From Mycoplasmataceae bacterium (lineage in GTDB: Bacteria > Bacillota_I > Bacilli_A > Mycoplasmatales > Mycoplasmoidaceae): a stretch of 38,457 bases of DNA. The position numbers were made by a program, and so were the translations under genes. The notes beneath the pieces were generated by a model. That model made no database searches, was not told where the DNA came from, and was given only the letters and a program-made list of their open reading frames with translations. The stretch spans positions 1 through 38,457 of the forward strand of contig JAISPD010000010.1 of assembly GCA_031275175.1 (NCBI GenBank), read 5' to 3'. This document shows positions 227 to 38,136 of the stretch, piece after piece; positions within the stretch are counted from its first letter, which is position 1; each line of letters starts with the position of its first letter.

Positions 227-1049
227 AATTGTTACTACGGTTGGCTTAGCTGCATTGGTGGGCACAGTTGCTACTTCAATTGCATCGTGTGGTAGCAATA
301 ATCCTATACCTACACCAACACCTACACCCCCCCCAAGTCCAACTGATTACATTGGTAAATGGGATGGATCTGATTGGAAGGGACACGAAAATTTACCAGG
401 GCATCTTGAATTAGGCATTAACGAAGATGGGACTACTGCTTGCATTGAAAGAGTTAACGGCGATGTAGAATTTGCTGCTTATAATTTTGTTATTCCTGAT
501 TCAGTTTATGGGGAAGATGGCACAACTGTTTACAAACTTACGAAAATTAATAATGATGCATTTTCCACTGCTGCGGACTACGCATGTTTATTTGGAACAC
601 TAACAATTGGTAATAACATAGAAGAAATTGGGGATAGTGCATTTTATCAATGCTATGCCTTAACTGGAGATTTAATTTTTCCTAATAGTGTCATCTCAAT
701 AGGGAATAGTGCATTTTATCAATGCTCCAATTTTTATGGAAGACTAAGATTTGGTGATCATGTTGAACACATTGGTTCTGAAGCCTTTGTAGATGATAAT
801 TTTACAGAAAATTTAATAATTAAGAATTCAGTAGAAAGCGTTGGTCAATATGCTTTTTTTCATACAAACAATTTCGCCAAATTAGTTTTTGAAGGTTGAA
901 ATCAGCAACCAAATTGGGATTCAGAAGCAACTGAAATATTTGGAGACTGGGATGATAGCGGAATAGTTTCTAGTACAGGTTCTTGGGGTTCATCTGATGC
1001 ACTATCATTTGCAATAAGTCATGGATTGCCATCCGGTTGGCATGTGTAA
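207..1049 (+). CDS. BspA-like leucine-rich repeat lipoprotein
   Basis: Predicted 280-residue surface lipoprotein. ATG 207 is chosen because it is the only in-frame Met before the signal peptide; it needs UGA-Trp at residue 5. A hydrophobic segment ends in lipobox SIASC near residue 26, then a Thr/Pro-rich linker. Residues about 120-230 hold LRR_5-type repeats (IGDSAFYQC, IGNSAFYQC, IGSEAFVDD, VGQYAFFHT), the BspA class of cell-surface repeats. A second UGA-Trp (897-899) leads into a Trp-rich tail ending at TAA 1047. TATAAT lies at 173-178. Adhesion or host interaction is likely by family but inferred. Flanked by IS30 debris on both sides. Confidence 0.85.
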
Positions 1050-1087
1050 ATTAATACTCACTTTTTAGGATACACTTCAGGATGAGG

Positions 1088-1243
1088 TTACCCATTAAAA
1101 AGACTTTTTAGCATCCTAGAGATAGTAGTTTTATTTCGGTTACGTTTTCTAGCTATTTGAAATATTGACAACCCATTATTAAAGTCATCAACGATTAAAA
1201 TTCTTTCATCGTGAGATATATGTTTATAATTTTTATTGTTCAT
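1088..1243 (-). pseudogene. IS30 transposase N-terminal remnant (51 aa)
   Basis: Minus-strand ORF beginning MNNKNYKHISHDER and containing GLSIFQIARKRNRNKTTISRML. This matches the N-terminal helix-turn-helix of IS30 transposases ('GLS...IA..L.R..STISREL'), which binds the terminal repeats. It stops at TAA (1088-1090) after 51 codons, without any DDE catalytic domain. It is contiguous with the left-end sequence at 1215-1340, so this is the left third of an IS30-type element. Confidence 0.75.
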
Positions 1244-1340
1244 AGGAACCTTTCATAATTGTTTTTATCAAACATAATTATATTTAAGGTCCTTAATGGA
1301 CTTTTTTATTTAGTATTGCACTTGCAATTGGAATTTATCC
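1215..1340 (-). mobile_element. IS30-type left end, relic copy A
   Basis: A block that recurs at 11520-11643 (same orientation) and 24570-24671 (opposite orientation). It holds the transposase start and 5' untranslated region, a GTCC/GGAC hairpin with a T run (about 1289-1306 on the plus strand), and the outer end TTGCAATTGGAATTTA near 1324-1337, presumably the terminal inverted repeat. On the plus strand the hairpin and T run could terminate transcription of the lipoprotein gene ending at 1049. No target duplication or right end is seen. Confidence 0.65.
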
Positions 1341-1385
1341 ATATTTTTTATAAGCAGTTTTTAATCATTTTGCCTATTAATTTAA

Positions 1386-1391
1386 TATAAT
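1386..1391 (+). promoter_or_regulatory. Promoter -10 for the yaaA-gyrB-gyrA run
   Basis: TATAAT lies 26 bases before ATG 1418. No convincing -35 hexamer is visible at 16-18 bases upstream. The remaining sequence between the IS30 end and this site shows nothing else recognisable. Confidence 0.5.
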
Positions 1392-1417
1392 TTTTTCATT
1401 AAACATGCGAGCGCTAA

Positions 1418-3630: not shown

Positions 3631-6159
3631 ATGAGTGATAAAAATTTAACCGTTGAGGGAATTCGCGAAACATTAAAACAAACCAAACTTAATGATCGTG
3701 CGATTGTTAAAGAATTAGAAACTTCGTTTCTAGAATATGCAATGAGTGTCATCGTGGCACGAGCTTTGCCCGATGCACGTGATGGTTTTAAACCAGTGCA
3801 TCGCCGAGTTTTATATGCAGCATATGCTTTAGGCATGACAAGTGACAAACCTCACAAAAAGTCAGCTAGACTAGTGGGAGAAGTGATTGGTAAATATCAC
3901 CCTCACGGAGATACAGCGGCTTATGATACCATGGCACGTATGGCACAAGATTTTTCCATGCGTTACCCTCTCATAGATGGACATGGTAATTTTGGTTCAA
4001 TCGGCGGGGACAGCCCTGCAGCTATGCGTTATACAGAGGCAAGGTTATCTAAGTTAGCTGATACCATGATGACGGATATTGAAAAAAATACCGTTGACTT
4101 TGTAGATAATTATGATGGTAGTGAAAGAGAACCAAGTGTTTTACCGGCAGCGTTCCCCAACATGTTGGCCAATGGATCTAGTGGAATTGCGGTTGGTATG
4201 GCCACCAACATTCCTCCACACAATTTAACGGAATTAGCAGAAGCAATTAAATTAATTGCCCACAATCCTCAGTGCACCATTGGTGAGATTAAAATGGTTT
4301 TAAAAGGCCCAGATTTTCCTACTGGTGCTGAAATTATTGGTGGCAGCGGGATTGATGATTATTTTAATACCGGTAAAGGTTCGGTTACCTTAAGATCTAA
4401 ATATTCATACAAAATATTATCTAATGGTAAATCCTTAATTACAATTACTGAAATACCATACATGGTAACCACTGAAAATTTAGAAAATAAGATTACCGAA
4501 TTAGTTAATTCTGGAGCAATAGATGGGATTGCTAATTTGGGGGGTGGGCCAACACGTAACGGATTACGTTTCATTATTGAGACTAAAAAAGATGTCGTAC
4601 CAGAAGTGTTGATGAACCAACTATTTAAAGCTACACAATTACAAACAAACTTCAGCGTTAACATGTTAGCTTTAGTAGGTGGCGAACCTAAAATATTAAA
4701 CATTAAAGAGGCGTTACAAATTTACATTGATCATCAAGTGAATGTTTTGACTCGTCGTGTAAATTACGATCTTAAAAAAACCAAAGAACGCGAACACATA
4801 TTAGAAGGCTTACATATTTCGGTTAGTCATATTGATGAAGTAATCCAAACAATTCGCCGCTCTAAAAATAACGAAGAAACCATCCAAAATTTAATCAGTC
4901 AATTTAAACTAACCGAGATTCAAGCAAAAGCAGTTTCTGATATGCGTTTAGGTGCTTTAAATAATTTAGGGATACAAAAAATTGAAGATGAATTAGCTCA
5001 ATTGAAACAATTAATTATTGATTTAACTGCAATATTAAATAATTATGATCGTAAAATTGCTATCATTGAAGAAGAATTAAACAAATTAGTTAAACGTTTT
5101 GGCGATGACCGAAAAACCACTATTGACATTTCAGCAGTTGCTGATATAGATGATGAAGACTTAATTCCAGTTGAAGATGTCATTGTAACAATGTCTTCTC
5201 GTGGGTATTTAAAACGTTTGCCAATTGATACCTATCGTGTTCAAAAAAGGGGTGGTGTGGGTGTTATAGGTTTGCAAACACACGACGATGACGATGTGGA
5301 AAAAATTATTGCTACATCTACACACACCGATTTACTTTTCTTTACTGATGCTGGGAAAGTTTATCGTATGCGCGGGCATCAAGTGCCGCGGGGGAGTAGA
5401 CAAGCCAAAGGAATTCCTGCTATTAACATCATTAACATTGAAAAAGGTGAAAAAATATTGTCAATTCTGTCTGTAGACGACTATCAAAACGCTGCTTTAT
5501 TTTTTGCTACCTTAAAAGGTATTACTAAAAAAACCAATTTAGCAGAATTTGAAAGAATTAATCGTTCTGGGAAAATTGCCATCTCTTTAAAAGAGAGTGA
5601 TAAATTATTTAAAGTAATTAAAGTACGTGCCAGTCAAGAAATATACATTGGTGCTTCTAATGGGAATATGGTGCGTTTTAATGAAGATCAAGTACGTTCA
5701 ATGGGCAGAAATGCAGCCGGAGTTCACGGAATTAAATTAGATGCAAAAGATGTTGTGGTAGGATTATCTAATTCAGCCGACGGTAATTTAATTTTCTCAG
5801 TTGGAGCTAAGGGTATAGGTAAACTAACACCAGTAGAAGAATATCGTTTAACCAAACGGCATGCAAAAGGAGTACGTACATTAAAAGTAACCCCCAAAAC
5901 AGGTAAATTAATTTATGTAGGTGCTGTCAAGGGGGATGAAGATGCATTGATGATTACTTCTACAGGTAAAGTGATTCGTTTTTCTTTAACTACTTTAAGA
6001 CAAATTGGCAGAAGCACTTCAGGCGTTAAATTGATGAATGTGGAAGAAAATGAAAAAATTCAATCCATAACAATTTTTATCGCGGATAATAATATAGGTG
6101 ATATGTCTAACGCACCACTTGATGTTGATATGATTGATAACGAAGAACAACTAAAATAA
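3631..6159 (+). CDS. gyrA: DNA gyrase subunit A
   Basis: Breakage-reunion subunit, 842 residues. The quinolone-resistance region reads GKYHPHGDTAAYDT from residue 87, so Thr stands where E. coli has Ser83 while the Asp87 equivalent is kept. The catalytic Tyr is Y134 in AAMRYTEARL. QKRGGVG at 538-544 is a GyrA box, which marks a DNA-wrapping gyrase C-terminal domain rather than ParC. An acidic tail (DMSNAPLDVDMIDNEEQLK) ends the protein. The start follows AAGGAATT. No UGA codons occur in this frame. Confidence 0.97.
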   Translation: MSDKNLTVEGIRETLKQTKLNDRAIVKELETSFLEYAMSVIVARALPDARDGFKPVHRRVLYAAYALGMTSDKPHKKSARLVGEVIGKYHPHGDTAAYDTMARMAQDFSMRYPLIDGHGNFGSIGGDSPAAMRYTEARLSKLADTMMTDIEKNTVDFVDNYDGSEREPSVLPAAFPNMLANGSSGIAVGMATNIPPHNLTELAEAIKLIAHNPQCTIGEIKMVLKGPDFPTGAEIIGGSGIDDYFNTGKGSVTLRSKYSYKILSNGKSLITITEIPYMVTTENLENKITELVNSGAIDGIANLGGGPTRNGLRFIIETKKDVVPEVLMNQLFKATQLQTNFSVNMLALVGGEPKILNIKEALQIYIDHQVNVLTRRVNYDLKKTKEREHILEGLHISVSHIDEVIQTIRRSKNNEETIQNLISQFKLTEIQAKAVSDMRLGALNNLGIQKIEDELAQLKQLIIDLTAILNNYDRKIAIIEEELNKLVKRFGDDRKTTIDISAVADIDDEDLIPVEDVIVTMSSRGYLKRLPIDTYRVQKRGGVGVIGLQTHDDDDVEKIIATSTHTDLLFFTDAGKVYRMRGHQVPRGSRQAKGIPAINIINIEKGEKILSILSVDDYQNAALFFATLKGITKKTNLAEFERINRSGKIAISLKESDKLFKVIKVRASQEIYIGASNGNMVRFNEDQVRSMGRNAAGVHGIKLDAKDVVVGLSNSADGNLIFSVGAKGIGKLTPVEEYRLTKRHAKGVRTLKVTPKTGKLIYVGAVKGDEDALMITSTGKVIRFSLTTLRQIGRSTSGVKLMNVEENEKIQSITIFIADNNIGDMSNAPLDVDMIDNEEQLK

Positions 6160-6184
6160 TATAAAAACAAAGGGCAACAAAAAT

Positions 6185-7177
6185 ATGAAAAAATTAATTA
6201 ATAATGTAAATAACATAGTAGAAGAAATGGTAGAAGGCATCGTAGCTGCTGCTCCTAGTAAATTAGCAAAAGTAGCAAACTACAATGTTATTTATTCCAA
6301 AACTTTTAATAAAAAGAATGTAGCATTAATTTCGGGTGGAGGTAGTGGACATGAACCAGCCCACGCTGGTTATGTCGGCGATGGGATGTTAACAGCAGCG
6401 GTAGTGGGATCTATTTTTACTTCACCCACACCAGATATGGTGCAAACTGCAATCAATGCATGTGATTCTGAACAAGGAATTTTATTAATTATTAAGAATT
6501 ACACGGGAGATGTTATGAACTTTCAGATGGCTGCCGAAATGGCAAAATCTGAAAATAAGATTGTCGATTATGTTATTGTAGCTGATGATGTATCTTTAGT
6601 AGATAACAAAGCAGACACAGGAATGCGTGGTATTGCGGGTTGTGTTTTGGTACATAAAGTTGTAGGAGCAAAAGCTCAAACAGGAGCATCGTTAGAAGTG
6701 GTGAAAGCTCTTGCAGAAAAAGCCATTAAGAATGTGGGCACATACGGAGTGGGTTTAGATGCCTGTATTGTACCCGCTATTGGTCATAAAGGATTTACCT
6801 TAGCAGATAATGAAGTAGAAATGGGTCTAGGTATTCATGGAGAACCGGGTGTCAAACGCACGCAAATGCAACCTGTTGATACTTTTGTGATGGAAATGTT
6901 AGATGCGATTATTAAGCATTTAAACATTCAAAGCAATGATCGAGTAGCGGTTTTAGTAAACGGGCTAGGTGCTACTCCGTTAATGGAGTTATATATTGTT
7001 AATCGCAAGGTGCAAGAAATTCTTAAAAGTAAAAATATTAGTGTTGTGACAACCAATGTGGGGAACTACATGACGGCGATTGATATGCCGGGAATGTCAA
7101 TTTCATTGATGAAATTAGATGATGAACTTGTAGAATTAATAAAGGCGCCATCAGATACTTTGGCATTTAAAAGATAA
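6185..7177 (+). CDS. dhaK: Dihydroxyacetone kinase subunit DhaK
   Basis: Substrate-binding subunit of dihydroxyacetone kinase, 330 residues. GGGSGHEPAHAG includes H56, KNYTGDVMNF carries the conserved Asp, and GIHGEPG contains H218, the His that forms a hemiaminal with the ketone substrate in this family. DhaK normally needs DhaL for nucleotide binding and, in PTS systems, DhaM; neither is present here. The next genes encode LacA, LacB and an aldolase. It may pair with a DhaL elsewhere, or act on another short keto-sugar in this operon. Starts 25 bases after gyrA. Confidence 0.92.
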   Translation: MKKLINNVNNIVEEMVEGIVAAAPSKLAKVANYNVIYSKTFNKKNVALISGGGSGHEPAHAGYVGDGMLTAAVVGSIFTSPTPDMVQTAINACDSEQGILLIIKNYTGDVMNFQMAAEMAKSENKIVDYVIVADDVSLVDNKADTGMRGIAGCVLVHKVVGAKAQTGASLEVVKALAEKAIKNVGTYGVGLDACIVPAIGHKGFTLADNEVEMGLGIHGEPGVKRTQMQPVDTFVMEMLDAIIKHLNIQSNDRVAVLVNGLGATPLMELYIVNRKVQEILKSKNISVVTTNVGNYMTAIDMPGMSISLMKLDDELVELIKAPSDTLAFKR

Positions 7178-9945: not shown

Positions 9946-10045
9946 TTTTTTATTACAGAGAATTTTAAAAAGTAAAATCTCATGGAGTGAAAATAAATTA
10001 AGTGGCAATAATTAGATTAAAATAAAAAAGCCCGTAAGGATGCCA

Positions 10046-10077
10046 ACGATATACCGATCGTCATGAAAAATTATAAT
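10046..10077 (+). promoter_or_regulatory. Promoter region with short inverted repeat
   Basis: TATAAT at 10072-10077 precedes the repeat-protein start at 10106 by 28 bases. ACGAT and ATCGT (10046-10061) form a five-base inverted repeat around ataccg just upstream, a possible operator. The rest of 9946-10105 holds a weak hairpin (GAG..ATTTTA / TAAAAT..CTC, 9958-9981) and nothing coding. Confidence 0.35.
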
Positions 10078-10105
10078 TGAACACTTGCTAAGAAAGAAAA
10101 TAAAT

Positions 10106-11437
10106 ATGAAAAACAAAAATTCTAATCAACAGCACTCAAAATGAAAACGAAATCATAGAAATAAAGTGATTTTTGGAATTTTATCATGTGGATTAATTAT
10201 GGTAGGAGCAGGTGCTGGAATTGGTATCGGTTATAGTATATGAAGTAAAAATAATACGCCACCAAACCCTACCCCCACTAAAGAATTTCAAATTACGGTC
10301 ATAAAAAATACTGCGAATGGTCTGCTCAAAGAAGCTGGTGACGAAATTATTTTACAGGCATTTCCGATCAATGGTTATGACATTAGCTGGGATGGTCTTA
10401 GTAAAATAGATGGGGTTAAATATGATACTAGTATCGCAACGTTATTATCTATTAAAGCCACAAAAAATTTAGATTACCATGAGGATTTACATATTACTGC
10501 TACTGATGGTATTAATGTTGCTTACCATGTTGTAGATATCTATGATCTTATAGAAAATCCCATACCTTTAACTTCTGAATACTTTGTTTTTGATACAACT
10601 GATAATACCAATGATACACTTATGGGATTTTCTGAACAAGTGAAACAAAACCCTAGTATTTTAAGTGCCTTTAATGTATTAGATTTTTCCAACCGGACAA
10701 ATATCAAATATGTTGGAGGCAGTTGTAAATTTAACCACCAAATTTTTAATGAATTTCAGGTTCAAAAAATTGATCTAAGTAATTTAATTTTTTTACCAAA
10801 TGCCAGTGGCCAATCAGCAAGTACATTGTTCTATGGTTGCAATTTTTCATCATGTATTCAATTAAATTTATTTGGCGTGGATTTTGCAACAATAGGTACA
10901 AACCGAACTGCCTATTATACTTTTTCATACGCCAACTTATCCGGATTAGCTCAATTAGATTTGTCGAACACGATGTTTGCAGCTAATAACATGACCTCAG
11001 GTGATGTTTACACTGCCTATTATACTTTTTCATACGCCAACTTATCTGGATTAGTTCAATTAGATTTGTCAAACACAGTATTTGCAGCTAATAACATGAC
11101 CTCGGGTGATGTTTACACTGCCTATTATACTTTTGATGCCACCAACTTATCTGGATTAGATGAATTAGATTTGTCAAATACAATATTTACAATTAGCGGG
11201 ATGACGACTTCAGAGTCGGTTTTCATTGCTCATTATACTTTTTATGCCATATCATTAAATGATTTATCAAAAATTTACTTACCAAACTACGATAGCTCAT
11301 TACCGATATGGTCTTCAACTTTCAATAATCATACTGTTGATAGTGCTTTCATAATATATGGATATGACTCTAGTTGACCAACGTGGTTTGATTCAAGTTG
11401 GTGAGCAGGAGCCACTTACCAAGACGTGACGCCATAA
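10106..11437 (+). CDS. Membrane-anchored tandem-repeat surface protein
   Basis: A 443-residue protein. The basic N-terminus (KWKRNHRNK) and hydrophobic stretch ILSCGLIMVGAGAGIGIGYSI look like a signal anchor, with no clear lipobox. A short Pro/Thr linker and a domain of about 130 residues follow. Residues about 268-380 contain 35-residue repeats with the core YYTFSYANLSGL.QLDLSNT, resembling leucine-rich-repeat units of mycoplasma surface proteins, though I cannot place them firmly. The C-terminus is Trp-rich. Five UGA-Trp codons are used. It is probably extracellular, in an adhesion or variation role (inferred). Confidence 0.75.
10907..11227 (+). repeat. 105-bp in-frame tandem repeats in a surface-protein gene
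   Basis: Two nearly identical 105-bp units begin at 10907 and 11012. A third, diverged unit starts at 11117 and a degenerate fourth follows near 11228. Each encodes TAYYTF..ANLSGL..LDLSNT.F.....MTSGDVY (35 aa). Units 1 and 2 differ at only a few bases, suggesting recent duplication or recombination. Confidence 0.9.
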
Positions 11438-12668: not shown

Positions 12669-13868
12669 ATGTTTCATATTACTAAAAACATCTATTCGGT
12701 AGGTGTTCTCAACCCCAACATGCGTATTTTTGATATCATCATGCGCACAGAATATGGGACTTCTTACAATTCATTTTTAGTTAAAGGTGACAAAATAGCA
12801 TTAATAGATGGATGTCATGAGCATTTTACAAATTTGTATTTGAAAAATATTGAAGAAGTGGTACCTTTAAATAAAATTGACTATTTAATTGTTAATCATT
12901 GTGAACCGGACCATACAGGTGCTTTGCAAATATTATTAACAAAAGCCCCCAATATACAAATTTATTGTTCGCCATCTAGTAGTATCTTTTTAAAAGAGAT
13001 TACAAAATTACCATTAAATATTCATATTGTAAGAGACGGTGATACATTATCTTTGGGGAATAAACAATTGCAATTTATTAATGCTCCCTTTCTGCATTGG
13101 CCAGATTCTATGTTCACATATGTAAAGGAAGATAAAGTGGTGTTCACCTGTGATTTTTTAGGTGCACACTATTGTGAGCCGTCAATGATGGATAATTCTA
13201 TTACATACTCTGATGCATACAAAATTGCGATGAAGTTTTATTATGATGTAATTTTTAGTCCTTTTAAAGAACATGTAAACAACGGTCTAGATAAATTGAG
13301 TAAACTTGACTGTCAATATATTTGCACAAGTCACGGACCCATATTAACACCAAACCATTTGTATAAATATGTATTTGATAAGTATCGTGAATGGAGCAAA
13401 CCTGCAGTAAAAAAAGTCACTATTCCCATTTTTTTTGCATCAGCTTATGGGTATACTAAAAAACTAGCTGAGATTATTCAAAAAGGTATTCAATCTGTTA
13501 ATTCTGAAATTGAAACTAATATTTATGATGTAAATAATTATGATGCTAGTCTATTGAATTCATTAATGAATTCAGCGACAGCTTTTTGTATTGGGAGCCC
13601 CACAATTAATAAAAATGCTGTACCGCCAATTACTCATTTACTCAATGATATTGATGCCATTAATACTCAAGGAAAATTAGTTTTGGTGTTTGGTTCTTAC
13701 GGATGAAGTGGAGAGGCACAAAATATTCTCACTAGCATGGTAACCCACCTAAGAATGACACCTTTTGAAAAAAATATTCATATTCGTTTTTTACCATCAA
13801 TCGAACAAATGGAAGAAACTCAAAAAATTGCTAAAGATTTTGCTTTAAAAGTGTTAAACTTTAAATAG
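12669..13868 (+). CDS. Flavodiiron protein (A-type flavoprotein, O2/NO reductase)
   Basis: A 399-residue cytoplasmic enzyme with an N-terminal metallo-beta-lactamase-like diiron domain and a C-terminal flavodoxin domain. All diiron ligands are visible: H77-C-E79-P-D81-H82, H143 (LHWPD), D162 (TCDFLG) and H222 (SHGPI). The flavodoxin part starts near residue 255 with [15 protein letters not shown] and continues to [13 protein letters not shown] and VFGSYGWSGEA, with UGA as Trp in the last. The family reduces O2 to water and/or NO to N2O. It follows rubredoxin directly and lies one base before ychF. Confidence 0.93.
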
Positions 13869-17362: not shown

Positions 17363-19234
17363 ATGCTTCTCAAAACAATAAAAAGTTTTACATGCACTAT
17401 TTTTTCTATTGGTTTATCATTTGGTCTTGTTTCAACCTTAACATCTTGTAGTGTTATAGTACCAACATTTAATACTACTAATGTGGAACAAGATTGAGTA
17501 GCAGGACAAAGAGTAGATTTAACGGCTATTTGATCGGGTTATTATTTTGATGATATTCCGAATCCCAGTGAATACCATAATATTAAGATTCCTGAAGAAC
17601 ATAAAAATGATATTGAATTAGTTTCTAGCAATCTTTATAAAGATAATATCAACCATACTGAGTTTGCCAATGTAACATTCCGAATTCTTCAGCCACCTCC
17701 ACAACATGATGCCAAACCTTTTAATGTTGTTGTTACATGAACTATTAAACATACCAATTTTAAAAAAGATTCAATTTTAACAATTAGTCCACCCGATGAT
17801 AATGTTATTAAAATAAACCAAGATTTTTTGTATGTATCACAACCCGATACAGATTATGATTTAAATGAAAGTGAACTTAGTGCACTACCAGATAATTCCA
17901 TTCAATGTATTGATGGTGTGTACAACACAAATTACCCAGACTTTTTTAGAGATGAATTGAAATCACGTTCTGCCATTGAAACACACCTAGTGAATGATAT
18001 TTGTTGGTATCAATACTTGATGTGGAATGCGCTAAATTGTTTATACATCAACCCCTCTTTGCCTAATATATATGTCAATTTGAATAAATCATCATGGAAA
18101 TTCCACATAGATTTAGAATACAATTATGCTGAGCAAATTTTTACATATCTTAAAGTTCATTTAGAGGCAACAGCGACGATGCACATTTCTATTTTGCCGA
18201 CTACGACTGGTAAAATAGATTTGGATTATACTTGGGGTAACCCCGTCCAATCCGCAAGCGGCGAGTTAACTACTGGTCCCAAACTCTTGGGAGGTTACAC
18301 TGTAAGCAACGTAGCTGGGCGTGAACATTTTCCACAAGGATACAATGAAGATGGTACGAGTTCCTTTAATCCTTACACACAAAATTTTATTTCATTAGTT
18401 CCTTCAGAATTGGGTTCTTACCAAACTTTTAATTTGAACGTTAATTCTTCAATCATGAACATGACATCCCACCCTCGCTTATATTTCATGAGTCAACCGC
18501 GGTTTTTCGGATTAGAATATGCTACAGGTGAAGAACATTTAGGTTTCTCAACCAACGCTAGTTCATATGGTTATGATAGTTTTTCAAATTGACAATTTGC
18601 ACCACCTAGTTACACTTTATCAGGTATGAGTTTTAACTATACAACCAATCAATACATACATATACCTAACTATACGCCAAAACAAATTAAACAGTGTTAT
18701 GTAAACATTAACTGTAGCACAAAAAACCAACCCTTTTTTAACTATATAAGCCCAGGAGACAAGACAACATGAGCTAATAATTTTATACATCCAGCACTAG
18801 ATAAAGATATGGGAAGTAAACCAGACCCTGATTTTATCAAAAAAAGATATAACGAATATGAATTGAGTTATCAATCGTTAGGTACATATGAGAATGCCCA
18901 CTGAAAGAATCTGAAAGTAAAAGCCAAAAAAGAAGATACTAGTATCCTATTAGATGGTGTCAAATACTTTCAAATAATTCAGCAACAGTCTGGTAACGTT
19001 AATTATTCGGACCCGACCGGGGATAGAAAACCAGCAAATATTTTAGGTGGTACAAGTGATAATAAAAATCTGATTTCGGTAGTTAATGACAAATTTACTT
19101 TATTTTCTGCGGGATTAAATTATCTATTTTATACTGATAATATGTATTCCGATGAGCAAGCAGACAACGTTTTCTACTATACTCAAGACAGTTTAAATTG
19201 ATTGAATAATAATTTTCAGAATAACCCAACTTAA
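17363..19234 (+). CDS. Large lipoprotein of unknown function
   Basis: A 623-residue lipoprotein with a type II signal peptide: MLLKTIKSFTCTIFSIGLSF and lipobox STLTSC (Cys near residue 34). The mature part is rich in Asn, Tyr, Thr and Asp with no recognised domain; short, evenly spaced hydrophobic stretches suggest a beta-rich extracellular fold. Seven UGA-Trp codons are used. TATAAT at about 17346 lies 11 bases before ATG, so the leader is very short. An ABC exporter gene follows 21 bases downstream; whether they are linked functionally is unknown. Confidence 0.8.
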
Positions 19235-25867: not shown

Positions 25868-25914
25868 TGGAGGAATCAACCTTGTCTCTTTAGACGGGTT
25901 GATTTTTATTAATG
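25868..25914 (+). promoter_or_regulatory. Hairpin between Shine-Dalgarno and start codon
   Basis: A strong SD (GGAGG, 25869-25873) is followed directly by AATCAACC (25874-25881), an inner GTCT/AGAC stem and GGTTGATT (25897-25904), then seven bases and ATG 25912. Linear SD-ATG spacing is about 38 bases, too long, but with the hairpin folded it is about eight. The hairpin plus the following TTTT could instead be an attenuator. Confidence 0.5.
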
Positions 25915-27951
25915 AAAAAAACATACATCTCTGAAATAGAGGGAATGGTTGATTTTTATACTGAATTAGGTTTAACTCCAAATTACGATCTTAATACTGA
26001 CGGTGTTATCAATGGAACTTTGATCGAATTTAAAAAAACGCCATCAGTTGATGGTGGAATAGCCCATCATAAAGAACAGATAAAACGATATTTAAAAGCA
26101 TACAACAGTGCCGCTTTAGATATTCCCGGTATTTCATATCTCATATATTTAAATACCGAAGATTACATAAAAATTGACAATTTAACCAGTAAAGAAATCC
26201 AACGTGGGAAATGACGAAACCCTATAGAATTTTCAAAAGACATTAAAGATAATCAAAAATTTATTGATGGTTATATTGATGAATATTCAATAGTTTCATA
26301 CAACAATCGATATTGTTTAACACACCGTAATGTAACAAAAGAACAAGTTAAACAAGAATTCATTGATCCCAAAAAGTTACCAATTAAGAAATTTGATTGA
26401 GATGCGCAAATTAAAAAGGAAGAAAAAGAAACCAAACAAATAGGTTGACTTCATTTTAGTATGAATTTACTTGGCGATAAACTGTTAAAAAAACAGTTGG
26501 GTGCTTTTTTTACTCCAGCTCATTATGTAAATGTTTCAACTAGATATATAAGAAATGCAATTAAAGAAATTGGCGATAAACCATACTTAATTATTGATAG
26601 ATGTGCAGGAACCGGGAATTTAGAAAAATTTTTAAGTGAAGAGGAATTGAAGCATTGCGTTCTAAATACGTTTGATTATACTGAATGGACTACCTTGAAA
26701 GGACTATATGACGGAAGAGTGATGCTTATCATTCCTCCAACTCACGAATATAGAGATCAACGAGGATTATTAAAAAACGGGGATGCACTATCACAAGAAT
26801 TTCATGAGTATTTATCTAATTTTATTCATGAATGAAAATTAAAAAATAAAGATGGTAAATTAATTTTTATTGAAAATCCTCCTTTTGCTGCCGATGCGGG
26901 CTTTTTACCAAATTCTGGATTGGTTAAAAAAGATGTTAAGTTGACTTATATACAAAGACTTATGAAAAATAAAAAAATTCCAAACAACGATTATTTACAA
27001 AATAGATTTATTTGAAGTGCTTTTGAATTGTATATGTCTCCTGGTGATCATTACATTTTATATAGCCCAATAAAATATTGAAAATTACACCATCTAGTTG
27101 ACAAGTTTTTTGTTGAAGGCTATTTAACAAATAAAGGCGATTACAATACGGGCGACGCTGGTTTGCCAATAATACATTGGCGAAATGAAAATTGTGATAA
27201 TAATGAATTAAAGATGGAAAACGAAAACTTTATTATTAAAAAAATTAATGCACCCATACAAAAACTTTATATTGACGATAAAAACGCCAAAGCTAAAGAC
27301 ATCATTGCTTGGCACAAATGTTCGTCAACCGACATTATGTATGGAAATATAAATACTCAATTAATAAATGATAAGAAATATGGCGGTATCAAAATAACTA
27401 GAAAAAATATTTTGAATACTTGTCCTCTATTTTGTGCAGGTAAATTTGATAGAGCACACACAATTGTGTGATATGAAGCAGATGTAGTAATGAAGAGTAG
27501 TGATGGTGGAAATAAATATTTATCAGATAAAGAATTTATTAAAAGATGTTTTATTTTTACATGTTTAAATATTCAAAATAGGTGTTATTCAGATAAGAAT
27601 CATAACAATCATTTTACTTTATACCAAAAGACACTATGTGATGGCATTTTGAAGAAGTTTAAATTAGATAAATTCGATAAAGATTTATTAAACAAATGGA
27701 ACGAAGTTTTAAAAGAAGCAAAAAGATGTAAAGAATTCAAAAATACATACAAATATGGATTGTGTCAAATTGTAAAAGAAATAGCAAGTTTAAAAGAATG
27801 AAAAGGCTCTGTAAATAAAAAGGGCGAGCACATTATGGAATATAAATATTTGGCGTTAGTAGATAAAATAAAATACCTCAAAAAATCTCTCAAAACATAT
27901 TATGTTTCACAAATACAACCAAAATTATTTAAATACGAGTTGCTTAAGTAA
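25912..27951 (+). CDS. Single-chain restriction-modification enzyme (type IIG-like)
   Basis: A 679-residue fusion. The N-terminus carries a PD-(D/E)xK nuclease pattern: D30, then GTLIEFKK (E39, K41), then a Gln in HHKEQIKRY. The methyltransferase follows: motif X GAFFTPAHYV (about 197-206), motif I IDRCAGTGNLEKFL (D229-G235) and motif IV NPPF (323-326), an N6-adenine type. The C-terminal about 250 residues would hold target recognition. Eight UGA-Trp codons join what appear as fragments; no frameshift remains. It probably both cuts and methylates DNA. It lies upstream of rpoD in an island of plasmid-like genes. Confidence 0.85.
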
Positions 27952-34029: not shown

Positions 34030-35232
34030 ATGTCAAATGTAGTTTCGAATCGTTCAATTGATAATACTAGCAATAAGAATTTTTTTTCTAAACGAAACAC
34101 TCTGATCCTTATATTTACTTTTCTTTTATCAATTGCTTTGGTGTCGCTATCCATCATCTACGTTTTAAAAATTGATTGGGAAAATTTGTTTATACAAATT
34201 TATCATGGTTCTACTCAGACATGAGGGTGGGTTTGATTGCTGTTAATTACTTTATTTATTCCCTGAACTTTTTTTTGTCGTGCATTTACCATAACCATCA
34301 AAATTGAACAATTAGGATATAAAGTCAAATTTTGAGATAAGTTCATGTATGCTGTTACTATTTCCTTTTTAGCATTAGTGACTCCAGCTAATTTTGTAAC
34401 AGACCCTTATACTATTTTTTGATTAAAAACACACAAAATTAATACATCTAAAGCAGCGGCGCTAACTACTTGTAATGCCCTATTGTGAGAAATTGCTCAA
34501 TTAATAATTACTATGCCATCATTCATTTGAATGATTATGAATTGACAAAGCATTTTTGGCCAAGGTGCTATTGATCGTCAAAGCGGCTTAATTGTATTTA
34601 TTTTTATGATTATTGGTATGTTATTTAATTTTATTGGTTTAGCTTTCATGATAATTATTGGATTTAATAAAAAATTACATTACTTGGTATCACGTATTTT
34701 TAATTGAGTGAAAAAACTCTTGCACATGTCTTACCACGTTAAAACAGAAACCTATCAAACATATGTAGTAGAAGCAAAGATGCAACGTGAATTTTTAATA
34801 ATTTTTAAGATGTGAAAAAGCACCATATTTATTTTAACGATTGTCATCATCGATGAAATTTATTTATATTTTACTATTGTAATGTGCATTAAATTTCTAG
34901 CAGAAATTAATGGTGATTATTTTAAATTAAACATCTGAGAGATTTTTAATGTGGCTAACGTGACTACCACTGCTAATCGTTTTGTACCATTACCTGGCAA
35001 TGAATTTTCCATAGAATGAATTATGAAAGAATTTATGTGTACCAAAATTGGAGGTATACAACCATGACCCATCACATCTGACGATGATACGACTGTTTTA
35101 ATTAACAACTCCATTATGATATGAAGGACATGAACTAGTTATTTCCCCGCTATGATTGGTGCTTTTGGTTTTGGTTTTCTTACAATTAACCAAGTTAAAC
35201 AATATCGTAAAAAAACTTTAGTGCAGAATTAA
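34030..35232 (+). CDS. Membrane protein, LPG-synthase-TM/flippase-like (UPF0104) type
   Basis: A 400-residue protein with about seven to eight membrane segments and thirteen or so UGA-Trp codons. The central block FWDKFMYAVTISFLALVTPANFVTDPYTIFWLKTHKINTSKAAALTT resembles the 'G....s...P.g.Ge......L' region of lysylphosphatidylglycerol-synthase TM domains (AglD/YbhN), and VPLPGNEFSIEWIMKEF resembles their 'PTPGG.G..E' motif. The catalytic domain is absent, as in other mollicute members. ATG 34030 is chosen because of the promoter seven bases upstream; an in-frame ATG lies at 33964. Family assignment is moderate. Confidence 0.65.
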
Positions 35233-35251
35233 TATTTTTCACTAAAGTTTT
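35212..35251 (+). terminator. Terminator overlapping the stop codon
   Basis: AAAACTTTAGTG (35212-35223) and CACTAAAGTTTT (35240-35251) pair perfectly over 12 bases, followed by T. The stop codon TAA (35230-35232) is in the loop. It may also serve the converging glycyl-radical gene. Confidence 0.75.
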
Positions 35252-35271
35252 TAATGATATTAATTTAAAAA

Positions 35272-35457
35272 TTAATAATTATTCTGATGCTGATTATTGT
35301 GGTCTACTCTATTAGCTCGTTCTTCAATTTTTCCTAGACCAAATCTTTCATCTAGTGAAAGATAACCAGTTACTCTACTTATTGATTGAATATTGTGGGA
35401 CCCACACACTGGACAAACTTTATCTGATGGTCCTAAATATGTTACTTTACATGACAT
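35272..35457 (-). CDS. Detached glycyl-radical domain of anaerobic NrdD
   Basis: A 61-residue protein. CPVCGSHNI (C15, C18) and SRVTGYLS, with Gly31 in the glycyl-radical position, then RFGLGKIEERANRVDHN, match the extreme C-terminus of class III ribonucleotide reductase, normally part of NrdD. The large NrdD at 36108-38102 ends just before this domain, so the radical site is supplied in trans. SD AAGGAG lies seven bases before ATG 35457. It lies 134 bases after nrdG with a probable promoter (GATAAT near 35474-35479). An ordinary truncated NrdD copy is unlikely, since it has its own start and SD. Confidence 0.85.
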   Translation of the reverse strand: MSCKVTYLGPSDKVCPVCGSHNIQSISRVTGYLSLDERFGLGKIEERANRVDHNNQHQNNY

Positions 35458-35488
35458 GTTTTTTCTCCTTATGATTATCTTTACATAA

Positions 35489-35503
35489 TTGTGTATATCA
35501 CAA
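35489..35503. promoter_or_regulatory. 15-bp palindrome before the glycyl-radical gene
   Basis: TTGTG-TATAT-CACAA is symmetric and on the minus strand covers the likely -35 (TTGTGA) of the small gene. It shares ATATAC with repeats at the nrdD promoter, so one regulator could act at both. Confidence 0.4.
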
Positions 35504-35591
35504 AAAAGTAAATTTTTAATTTTTTTACCAACAAATTTCCCATAAATGGTGCTTGTGAGGGAAAAATTTCATAATAGGATATTTATCTTTT

Positions 35592-36101
35592 TTACATCTG
35601 TAAAATTTGGATTTTTTTGAGTTTAATTGATCTAGGCACATCAATAATTCGTTGGTTTTTTGAGCCGCGATATTTTAATTGAGCATCAGCTTGTCCTTCT
35701 ATATATTTGCCGTCAACTAAGACATCTATGTTCATCATTAGTTCATGTATTGATTGATTTTTTTTAGATAATTCTTGCAGTTCTTCATACGTATAACCTG
35801 TGTATGCTCATATATTGATGTGATGTTGTTTTAATTGTTTAGCTAACTTTGCGAATGCTTCAGCTTGTTGAAATGGATCACCACCTGAAAAAGTTACACC
35901 CGTTAAATATTGTTCCTTAACAACTTGCTTAACAAGTTCACGAATTTCAAATATTTTACCACCTGTGAACGGTCATGTTTCTGGATTAAAACAATTTAAA
36001 CAATGATGGCTACAACCTTGTGAAAAGAAAACTTTGCGCAACCCAACACCATTGACTGTGCTTTGTTGTGCTATGCCTGATAACCTAATTTCATTAATCA
36101 T
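35592..36101 (-). CDS. nrdG: Anaerobic RNR activating protein (radical SAM)
   Basis: A 169-residue radical-SAM activase that uses an iron-sulfur cluster and S-adenosylmethionine to make the glycyl radical on NrdD. The cluster motif is CSHHCLNC (CxxxCxxC) with FNPETW following (UGA-Trp), and GVTFSGGDPFQQ is the SAM-binding GGE-like region. VDGKYIEGQ and KYRGSKNQRIIDV complete the NrdG pattern. ATG 36101 lies six bases after the nrdD stop. Its radical acceptor appears to be the separate small protein downstream, not the C-terminus of NrdD. Confidence 0.94.
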
Positions 36102-36107
36102 TATTTT

Positions 36108-38102
36108 TTAATTATTTATTTGTTTAATAAATTCTTGTGATTTTTTGAGATTAGCTTGCTTGGCACAATCTCGACAGTAGCGAATATGAAAATTCATACC
36201 AATGTAGTTAATGTTAGTATTTTCATATGCTCAACGCACTACGCTTTCAATCATTTCACCATTTGGATATGAATCAAATTCCACATATGAAATATGGCCT
36301 CCATTGCATAGTTTATGATATGGAGCTTCTATTTCTAATTTCTCAGCAAAGGAAATTGGGAAATCAACAGGGACATGAAAACTATTGGTATAGAAACCCT
36401 TAGAAATAATCCAAGGAAGATCACCAAAACGGATTTTATCTTGTTTAGTAAATTTACCGGATAAACCTTCTGCGGGGGTTGCATAACAACTAAAATTCAT
36501 CTTATATTTTGTTTTATATGCGTCACATTTTTCACGGAGACGACCAATAATTTTTAAACCTAATTCTCTCGCTGCTAGTGATTCACCATGATGTTGACCA
36601 GTCAATGCTTTTAACGCTTCGGCTAAACCGATAAAACCGATACCCCAAGTACCATTCTTCATAATTGGTTCAATGGAATCTTCTAAAGTTAATTTTTCAG
36701 ATCCTTTCATCAAATGCTGTCCTGCTACAAATGGTAAATCTTTTACTTTTAATTTTTGTAACACGCTATGTCGATGCAAAAGTTGATCTTTAGCTAATTC
36801 AATTTTTTCATCAAATAATTCTCAAAACTTCTTTAAATCTTTATTGGCCATAATAGCAATTCTTGGTAAATTTATGGTTGCCGGTGCATTATTACCACGT
36901 CCCTCTACTCCCGGTTCGCCATTTATGTTACTCATGATGTATGTTCTACATCCCATGGTTGCGGGTAAAAAACCTTTATCATAATATTCTTTATTAAAAT
37001 CTGCATCTAAGTTCATAAAAGTAGGATTCATTCTTTGACTAGTTACATGACAAGCAATTTTAAATAAATAGTAGTATGGATCTTTAGGATCTCGGTTCAC
37101 GCCCTTCTTAATCCTAAAAATAATGTTAGGGAAAATTGGTTGTTCACCTTGTCCCATACCTTTTAAATATTGTTCTAAAAAAGATTGACAAATCATTGCT
37201 GCTTCAGGTGATTCGGGAATTCCTAAGTTAATAGAAGAAAACGGCACTTGACTACCGGCACGTGAATGCATAGTGTTAAGGTTGTAAACCACTGCTTGCA
37301 TGGCTTGATTAACTTTTTTAATCAGTTCATGCATTATTTTGCTTTCTAAGTCTTTCTTAGGTAAACCTAAATCTTTAAAGTTTTTCTCAATTTCTTTTTT
37401 AGATAATTTAACAAAATAAGCTAAATCATTGTCAAAATTTGGGTGAGATTGTCCGCCGAACATATCGTTTTGGGTAGCTTGCAAAATAATACATAGTAGT
37501 TCAGCGGCCACTTCAATATGTTTTGGTGGATTGATAGTACCATATCCAGTATTAAATCCTTCTGTTAACATTTTTTTAGTTGGAATGTGTAAACAATTAA
37601 GTGTTAAATTGTAACTGTCTAAATCATGGATATAAACATCTCCTAATTCGTGGGCTTTAGCCATATGCTCTGGTAGGACCGATAGTAATACGTGTCATTT
37701 ATTACTTTCGGATGCAATACGTAGTAATTTAGCTGAAAAATTGTTACCAACATTAGCATTGTCACGATCTGTTTCTATACCGATTTTGCTGATTACTTTC
37801 ATCAAATCAGTACGTTTTTCTCTTTGATGAGTGCGCTCAAGTCGATATAAATTGTAATTTTTAGCTAATTTATGATGACCTTTTTCATTAAGAGCTTGGA
37901 CAACAATATCTTGAATCTCTTCTACTTCAAATTCGTCCTTGTTTATTTTTTCTAATAGTTCGATTACATAATCTTTGACTTCTTTTATTTCGCTAGCTTT
38001 AATATCACTAGCTGTTCCTGAAGCTGCTTTATTTAAAGCGTCGCTTATTTTTGAGTCATGAAAACGAATTTTCCGTCCGTCTCGTTTAATAACAAATTTC
38101 AT
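36108..38102 (-). CDS. nrdD: Anaerobic ribonucleoside-triphosphate reductase, large chain lacking glycyl-radical domain
   Basis: A 664-residue class III reductase chain making dNTPs without oxygen. The ATP-cone (about 1-90, MKFVIKRDGRKIRFHDSKI) and catalytic barrel with NLTLNCLHIP and MGCRTYIMSN (thiyl Cys region) are intact, as are NNAPATINLPRIA and GGHISYVEF. It stops after YIGMNFHIRYC643RDC646 plus an unrelated Lys-rich tail. The second zinc CxxC and RVTGYL, normally the last about 45 residues, are on the protein at 35272-35457. UGA-Trp codons occur at 37692, 36822 and 36231. This allows growth in low oxygen, in line with the flavodiiron protein. Confidence 0.93.
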
Positions 38103-38136
38103 AATTGGAATTCCTTTCTGGCCAGATTATTTTATA

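Follow-up and report, generated by a model that had tools for sequence, protein, structure and literature searches.

The class III ribonucleotide reductases (RNRs) described to date carry the radical glycine on the catalytic chain, NrdD. Separate chains are known from several related systems. GrcA (YfiD) is a small separate protein with a radical loop of the PF01228 type that acts in trans on a core enzyme, rescuing damaged full-length pyruvate formate-lyase (PFL; PMC8683613, PMC12338860). The split class II RNR of P. aeruginosa (NrdJa and NrdJb) likewise places a C-terminal zinc-finger domain on a separate gene (PMC5704485, PMC9669993). RNR genes in pieces have also been reported in phages (Aeh1 nrdA; phiAS4, phage 949 and c-st nrdD), with at least Aeh1 nrdA being functional (PMC3653736); these phage splits mostly involve introns, inteins and homing endonucleases, and they have not been described as a detached radical domain. 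The window analyzed here, the whole 38,457-nt stretch of contig JAISPD010000010.1 from a Mycoplasmataceae bacterium, encodes a truncated NrdD, the activase NrdG and a 61-amino-acid (aa) protein that holds the glycyl-radical loop. We assign a probability of about 0.86 to the reading that these genes specify a class III RNR that is obligately two-chain, with NrdG as its trans-acting activase and a GrcA-like logic.

The window's genes were read with genetic code 4 (TGA as Trp), which is needed because in-frame TGA codons break nrdD and nrdG under the bacterial code, and which is also used by the Mycoplasmataceae, the group of the named relatives. The order of the genes is nrdD-nrdG-radical domain, with 6 nt between the first two, and the locus comprises the following features:

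36108..38102, minus strand: nrdD, class III RNR catalytic chain, 664 aa, with an ATP-cone (residues 3-91) and an NRDD domain (PF13597, PF03477, NF005497)
35592..36101, minus strand: nrdG, radical-SAM (S-adenosylmethionine) activase, 169 aa, with C30xxxC34xxC37 (TIGR02491)
35272..35457, minus strand: stand-alone NrdD glycyl-radical domain, 61 aa, with C15/C18 and RVTGYL containing Gly31 (PF13597 and a clade profile)
38112..38117, minus strand: AAAGGA, Shine-Dalgarno-like, of nrdD (from sequence)
35465..35470, minus strand: AAGGAG Shine-Dalgarno of the radical-domain gene, before its ATG (from sequence)
35458..35591, minus strand: gap of 134 nt between nrdG and the radical-domain gene (from sequence)
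35211..35252, minus strand: likely terminator downstream of the radical-domain gene, formed by an inverted repeat of 19 nt and a subsequent T run (from sequence)

A promoter-like match in the gap (35503..35474, TTGTGA-18-GATAAT) was not above chance, with 14 sites found against 17.8 expected, and an operator search of the same gap returned palindromes, none of them above chance.

The PF13597 profile, 562 positions long, is distributed over the two chains: NrdD matches positions 1-516 (581 bits, E 2.9e-174, above cut-off) and the 61-aa protein positions 520-562 (34.3 bits, cut-off 26.2). NrdD also matches NF005497 with 941 bits (cut-off 764), and NrdG matches TIGR02491 with 159 bits (cut-off 126). 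The Pfam and NCBIfam matches of the 61-aa protein are to NRDD or NrdD models only, the NCBIfam ones being models of full-length NrdD, and no match was obtained to PF01228-type models (TIGR04365, GrcA2, GrcA3). The NrdD chain, which ends in HIRYCRDCAKQANLKKSQEFIKQINN, stops 18 residues past the first CxxC (C643xxC646); it keeps C170, C385 of the MGCR finger loop and this first zinc pair, and lacks the second CxxC and the radical glycine. In an alignment of the clade profile to P. copri NrdD (8p23, 695-740), Gly31 of the 61-aa protein corresponds to Gly711. Both C385 and C170 are invariant across 30 aligned NrdDs, and the four Cys of the zinc site are all present and invariant, two on each chain. 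Judged by these residues and profiles, the two proteins jointly hold the complete set of class III RNR parts, and the locus is a split variant rather than an ordinary member of the class. The ORFs and the division of the Pfam profile thus confirm the anatomy proposed in a first-pass annotation of this DNA, which had placed C643/C646 on one chain and C15/C18 and Gly31 on another, with its own Shine-Dalgarno and in the gene order given above.

The single-chain NrdD/NrdG systems of P. copri, T4, T. maritima and Clostridium share with this locus the barrel, the ATP-cone, C170, C385 in MGCR, the CxxC pairs, RVTGYL and NrdG, with strong sequence matches. The distribution of these parts is different: the zinc pairs and radical glycine are found here on two chains, and on one in all Clostridium NrdDs examined. 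GrcA differs in pairing its loop with PFL, the domain here being of the NrdD type and accompanied by a zinc half-site; moreover, no full-length NrdD was found in this genome for the 61-aa protein to rescue. The separate domain of the P. aeruginosa enzyme serves re-reduction rather than storing a radical, and the two zinc sites are not regarded as homologous (PMC5704485).

Exactly 10 residues separate the two CxxC pairs in 64 of 65 Clostridium-type single-chain sequences (the remaining one did not parse). In the split lineage NrdD ends 2-29 residues after the first CxxC, and the small proteins have roughly 10-25 residues ahead of the second. Because the break falls inside the loop between the pairs, the four-Cys zinc site is predicted to form across two chains. 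The usual arrangement in the genus is nrdD-nrdG-domain or unlinked genes. A sister lineage (G051) is split in place, with the nrdD stop, a Shine-Dalgarno, an ATG and the radical domain followed by nrdG; the two frames are adjacent and in phase, and the stop overlaps the Shine-Dalgarno (TTTTTAAAGGAGATTAATTATG). We built a tree from 69 NrdD cores, in which the main split clade, with 32 rows and an SH-aLRT support of 90, adjoins the Clostridium clade. Outside the main split clade lie a pair from genus g8 and the divergent split NrdDs of G004, G015 and G017. A second split NrdD, divergent and with a radical domain that contains an insertion, is found in these last three genomes (L026, L035, L037); in G004 the radical-domain gene lies upstream of nrdD, and in G017 an extra CxxC closes the NrdD tail.

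The radical domain of P. copri NrdD comprises residues 676-739, with Gly711 (PMC11226230). The model of the window NrdD (predicted local distance difference test score, pLDDT, 85) superposes on P. copri NrdD (8p2s_A) with Z 45.4 and 1.8 A over 511 residues, up to chain residue 675, and the match stops where the P. copri radical domain starts. When the G051 frames are translated past the stop, the resulting model (pLDDT 86.8, about 75-81 in the radical part and low at the join) superposes on 8p2s_B with 1.8 A over 591 residues, up to residue 735 and with the radical domain included. As modeled, this chimera shows that both pieces would fit one P. copri NrdD-like fold, assembly in trans lying beyond the model.

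To establish how widely the split recurs, we searched 99 genomes, comprising this genome and its relatives. The nearest named relatives are uncultured Mycoplasmataceae metagenome-assembled genomes (MAGs) and rumen 'Ureaplasma' MAGs, and the sample names of some suggest termite guts; the next nearest are single-chain Clostridium NrdDs with 60-66% identity and the same radical loop. A truncated NrdD is present in 38 genomes (33 in the genus, three in genus g4 and two in g8), all of which have a stand-alone radical domain, compared to one of the 61 others (G001, assembly 84% complete). The Pfam model missed this domain in several truncated-NrdD genomes of the genus, where a clade-built profile recovered all of them, on other contigs. 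Two genus genomes without NrdD (G002, G026) are also without the radical domain. Of the 38 genomes, 21 have both genes on one contig and 17 have them on two, and action in trans follows from this separation. Purifying selection acts on all three genes, with dN/dS of 0.04-0.13 for NrdD, 0.09-0.31 for NrdG and 0.07-0.17 for the radical domain (dS near saturation). The presence of the split in 38 genomes that were assembled independently excludes chance. A frameshift or an assembly error was likewise considered and rejected, as these genomes share the split, often on separate contigs.

The search for other RNRs points in the same direction. The only NRDD matches in this genome (assembly 86% complete) are the truncated NrdD and the 61-aa protein, and a second full-length NrdD was not found in it. 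The large subunit of class I/II RNRs (PF02867) was found in none of the 36 genus genomes and in none of genus g4; it is present in g8. In G042 and G051, a class I/II large subunit accompanies a split NrdD with a short N-terminus, apparently without an ATP-cone (L063, L068). These results uphold the first-pass annotation in its reading of a split class III RNR, through the selection on the three genes and the lack of a detected class I/II large subunit in the genus, and, through the 38 genomes and the 17 with separate contigs, in its dismissal of a frameshift; the same genomes exclude an assembly error, which it had named as contrary evidence, and the second full-length NrdD that it had also named was looked for and, within the 86% complete assembly, not found. 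On the strength of the anatomy, the co-occurrence, the selection and the lack of another detected RNR, a working two-chain enzyme is by far the best reading of the locus.

We therefore propose the following mechanism. NrdD would contribute the barrel, the sites for substrate binding and allosteric control, C385 as the thiyl Cys and the first zinc-ribbon half, and the 61-aa protein the second half together with the glycyl-radical loop. The chains would assemble around one zinc bound by four Cys, two from each, with the radical loop docked beside C385. NrdG and SAM would then place the radical on Gly31, which would generate the C385 thiyl radical in trans, and the reductant would probably be formate from PFL, as expected for an MGCR finger loop. 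We infer complex formation, the shared zinc, the radical position and activation by NrdG from homology to single-chain enzymes; we also infer the order of activation and the reductant. We hypothesize a likely benefit: when O2 cleaves the chain at the glycine, a cheap 61-aa cartridge would be lost and the 664-aa enzyme spared, which would amount to the GrcA/YfiD principle made obligatory.

The same cells divide their other glycyl radical enzyme in a similar manner, as identified by profile matches:

G000:C19 (this genome), locus L162, 4411..4650, 4656..6764 and 670..1413, minus strand: split PFL, with a 79-aa radical domain (RISGYAV), a 702-aa core and PflA

The nearest named family to this radical domain is the PFL-related GrcA3 (NCBIfam NF038360), at 138.6 bits and thus below its cut-off of 158. 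Among the 36 genomes of the genus, at least 20 have the PF01228 profile spread over two frames and eight have it in one, with a single chain of about 755 aa confirmed in G004 and G028. The parts of the split PFL are unlinked in G043, G055 and some others. In E. coli, complexes of PFL(1-695) and YfiD match wild-type activity after activation (PMC8683613), and the formate production of PflB-G734A is restored in vivo by GrcA (PMC12338860).

A survey of splits covering the Bacilli revealed a further case in family f20 of the same class (L193-L200), where NrdD retains both CxxC pairs and ends after the zinc site, and a gene lying between nrdD and nrdG encodes the radical loop as a protein of 53-67 aa. 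These NrdDs form a clade of their own (support 95) beside a fused relative in the NrdD-core tree, and NrdD has therefore been split at least twice independently. A different, NrdD-type radical domain of about 94 aa with an N-terminal extension occurs in 16 of 386 genomes of the class, most of which also have an intact NrdD. Three examples, each with a conserved extension and an intact NrdD in the same genome, are candidates for a GrcA-like spare part for NrdD:

L201, 3702..4004: NrdD-type radical domain
L202, 3725..4018: NrdD-type radical domain
L203, 2922..3293: NrdD-type radical domain

Short NrdD-type radical ORFs occur at more than 100 IMG/VR loci (a number that includes some near-duplicates), nearly all without an adjoining nrdD. 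Many of the IMG/VR contigs L211-L360 carry 45-110-aa ORFs with FERIRRITGYLVG.. and no nrdD beside them, and these are possibly phage-borne spare parts for host RNRs. In class-wide and phylum-wide scans, a stand-alone domain of the zinc-ribbon type was found only in the window's family, and additionally on one IMG/VR contig (L209, 4986..5153), which is either a virus or misclassified bacterial DNA. For phages and plasmids in GenBank with proteins close to that of the window, the annotated matches examined turned out to be single-chain NrdDs.

The alternative that survives best concerns the reason for the split and not the fact of it. Fission may have been neutral, with the two-chain enzyme working and fixed by drift in small populations without any oxygen-tolerance benefit, and we consider this a real possibility, with odds clearly short of even. 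The in-place split of G051 required just a stop, a Shine-Dalgarno and an ATG, and Mollicutes in general have reduced genomes and evolve fast. Against this reading, most of the genus divides PFL, the other glycyl radical enzyme, along the same lines, and NrdD was split independently in f20; these two observations suggest selection specific to radical domains. The PFL split in the same genome points toward the oxygen-cartridge purpose.

Other observations weigh against the two-chain enzyme itself or its proposed benefit. The G051 chimera model leans on homology to fused enzymes, and the draft state of the assembly (86% complete) means that another RNR or a salvage route could escape detection. 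Eight genus relatives keep PFL in one frame, which shows that cells can live in that niche without splitting it. Furthermore, tPFL and YfiD bind and activate poorly in vitro (PMC8683613), and trans assembly after strand loss is thus not automatically efficient.

Three further explanations would deny the two-chain enzyme. A role of the 61-aa protein as replacement part for a separate, single-chain NrdD, mirroring GrcA and PFL, is very improbable: the 94-aa domains of related Bacilli, mostly alongside intact NrdD, offer a precedent, and G001, G029, G034 and G042 have a second, divergent single-chain NrdD, but none was found in this genome, and the 61-aa sequence is Clostridium-like and fits its own truncated NrdD rather than the divergent type. 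It is highly improbable that the pieces are rejoined into a normal NrdD by trans-splicing, a split intein or recoding; phage split RNR genes do often involve introns or inteins (PMC3653736), but too few residues flank the break here to accommodate an intein, the tails differ from clade to clade, 17 of the 38 genomes have the genes on separate contigs, and the small ORF has its own Shine-Dalgarno and ATG. A split intein or intron was rejected on the basis of separable genes and a break with no intein or intron sequence and no long extra sequence. Least probable of all is decay, with an inactive truncated chain and a relic ORF, which a small, reduced draft genome and two genus genomes without NrdD might suggest, but which is at odds with strong purifying selection on the three genes, invariant catalytic and zinc residues, co-occurrence in 38 of 38 genomes despite frequent unlinking, and a genus without another detected RNR.

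Elsewhere in the window, a flavodiiron-type protein (12669..13868, plus strand), combining an ODP beta-lactamase fold with flavodoxin, is a likely scavenger of O2 or nitric oxide, and its presence fits with cells that meet O2. Three long ORFs under code 4 (10040..11437, 17363..19234 and 25912..27951, plus strand) gave no Pfam match.

We found no description of a detached NrdD radical domain in the open-access literature (subscription papers and preprints were outside the search), and a two-chain NrdD of this kind has apparently not been described before. As a natural two-chain form, it would allow the radical domain alone to be swapped, labelled, mutated and re-added, making long-standing questions directly testable, among them the route by which NrdG gains access to the glycine, the motion that carries the domain between the activase and the barrel, the role of the zinc site and the possibility of repairing O2-damaged NrdD. 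More broadly, and at just under an even chance, both glycyl radical enzymes of these cells may be cores with exchangeable radical cartridges, that of NrdD being held by a cross-chain zinc, a design that would recur independently as the obligate split of f20, the spare parts of other Bacilli and free NrdD-type cartridges on phage contigs that could restore the host RNR's radical domain to activity or take its place. The finding suggests, for an enzyme of DNA synthesis, a repair principle so far known only from PFL, and phages possibly use such parts. If true, the cartridge principle would be a general way of living with oxygen-fragile DNA-precursor synthesis.
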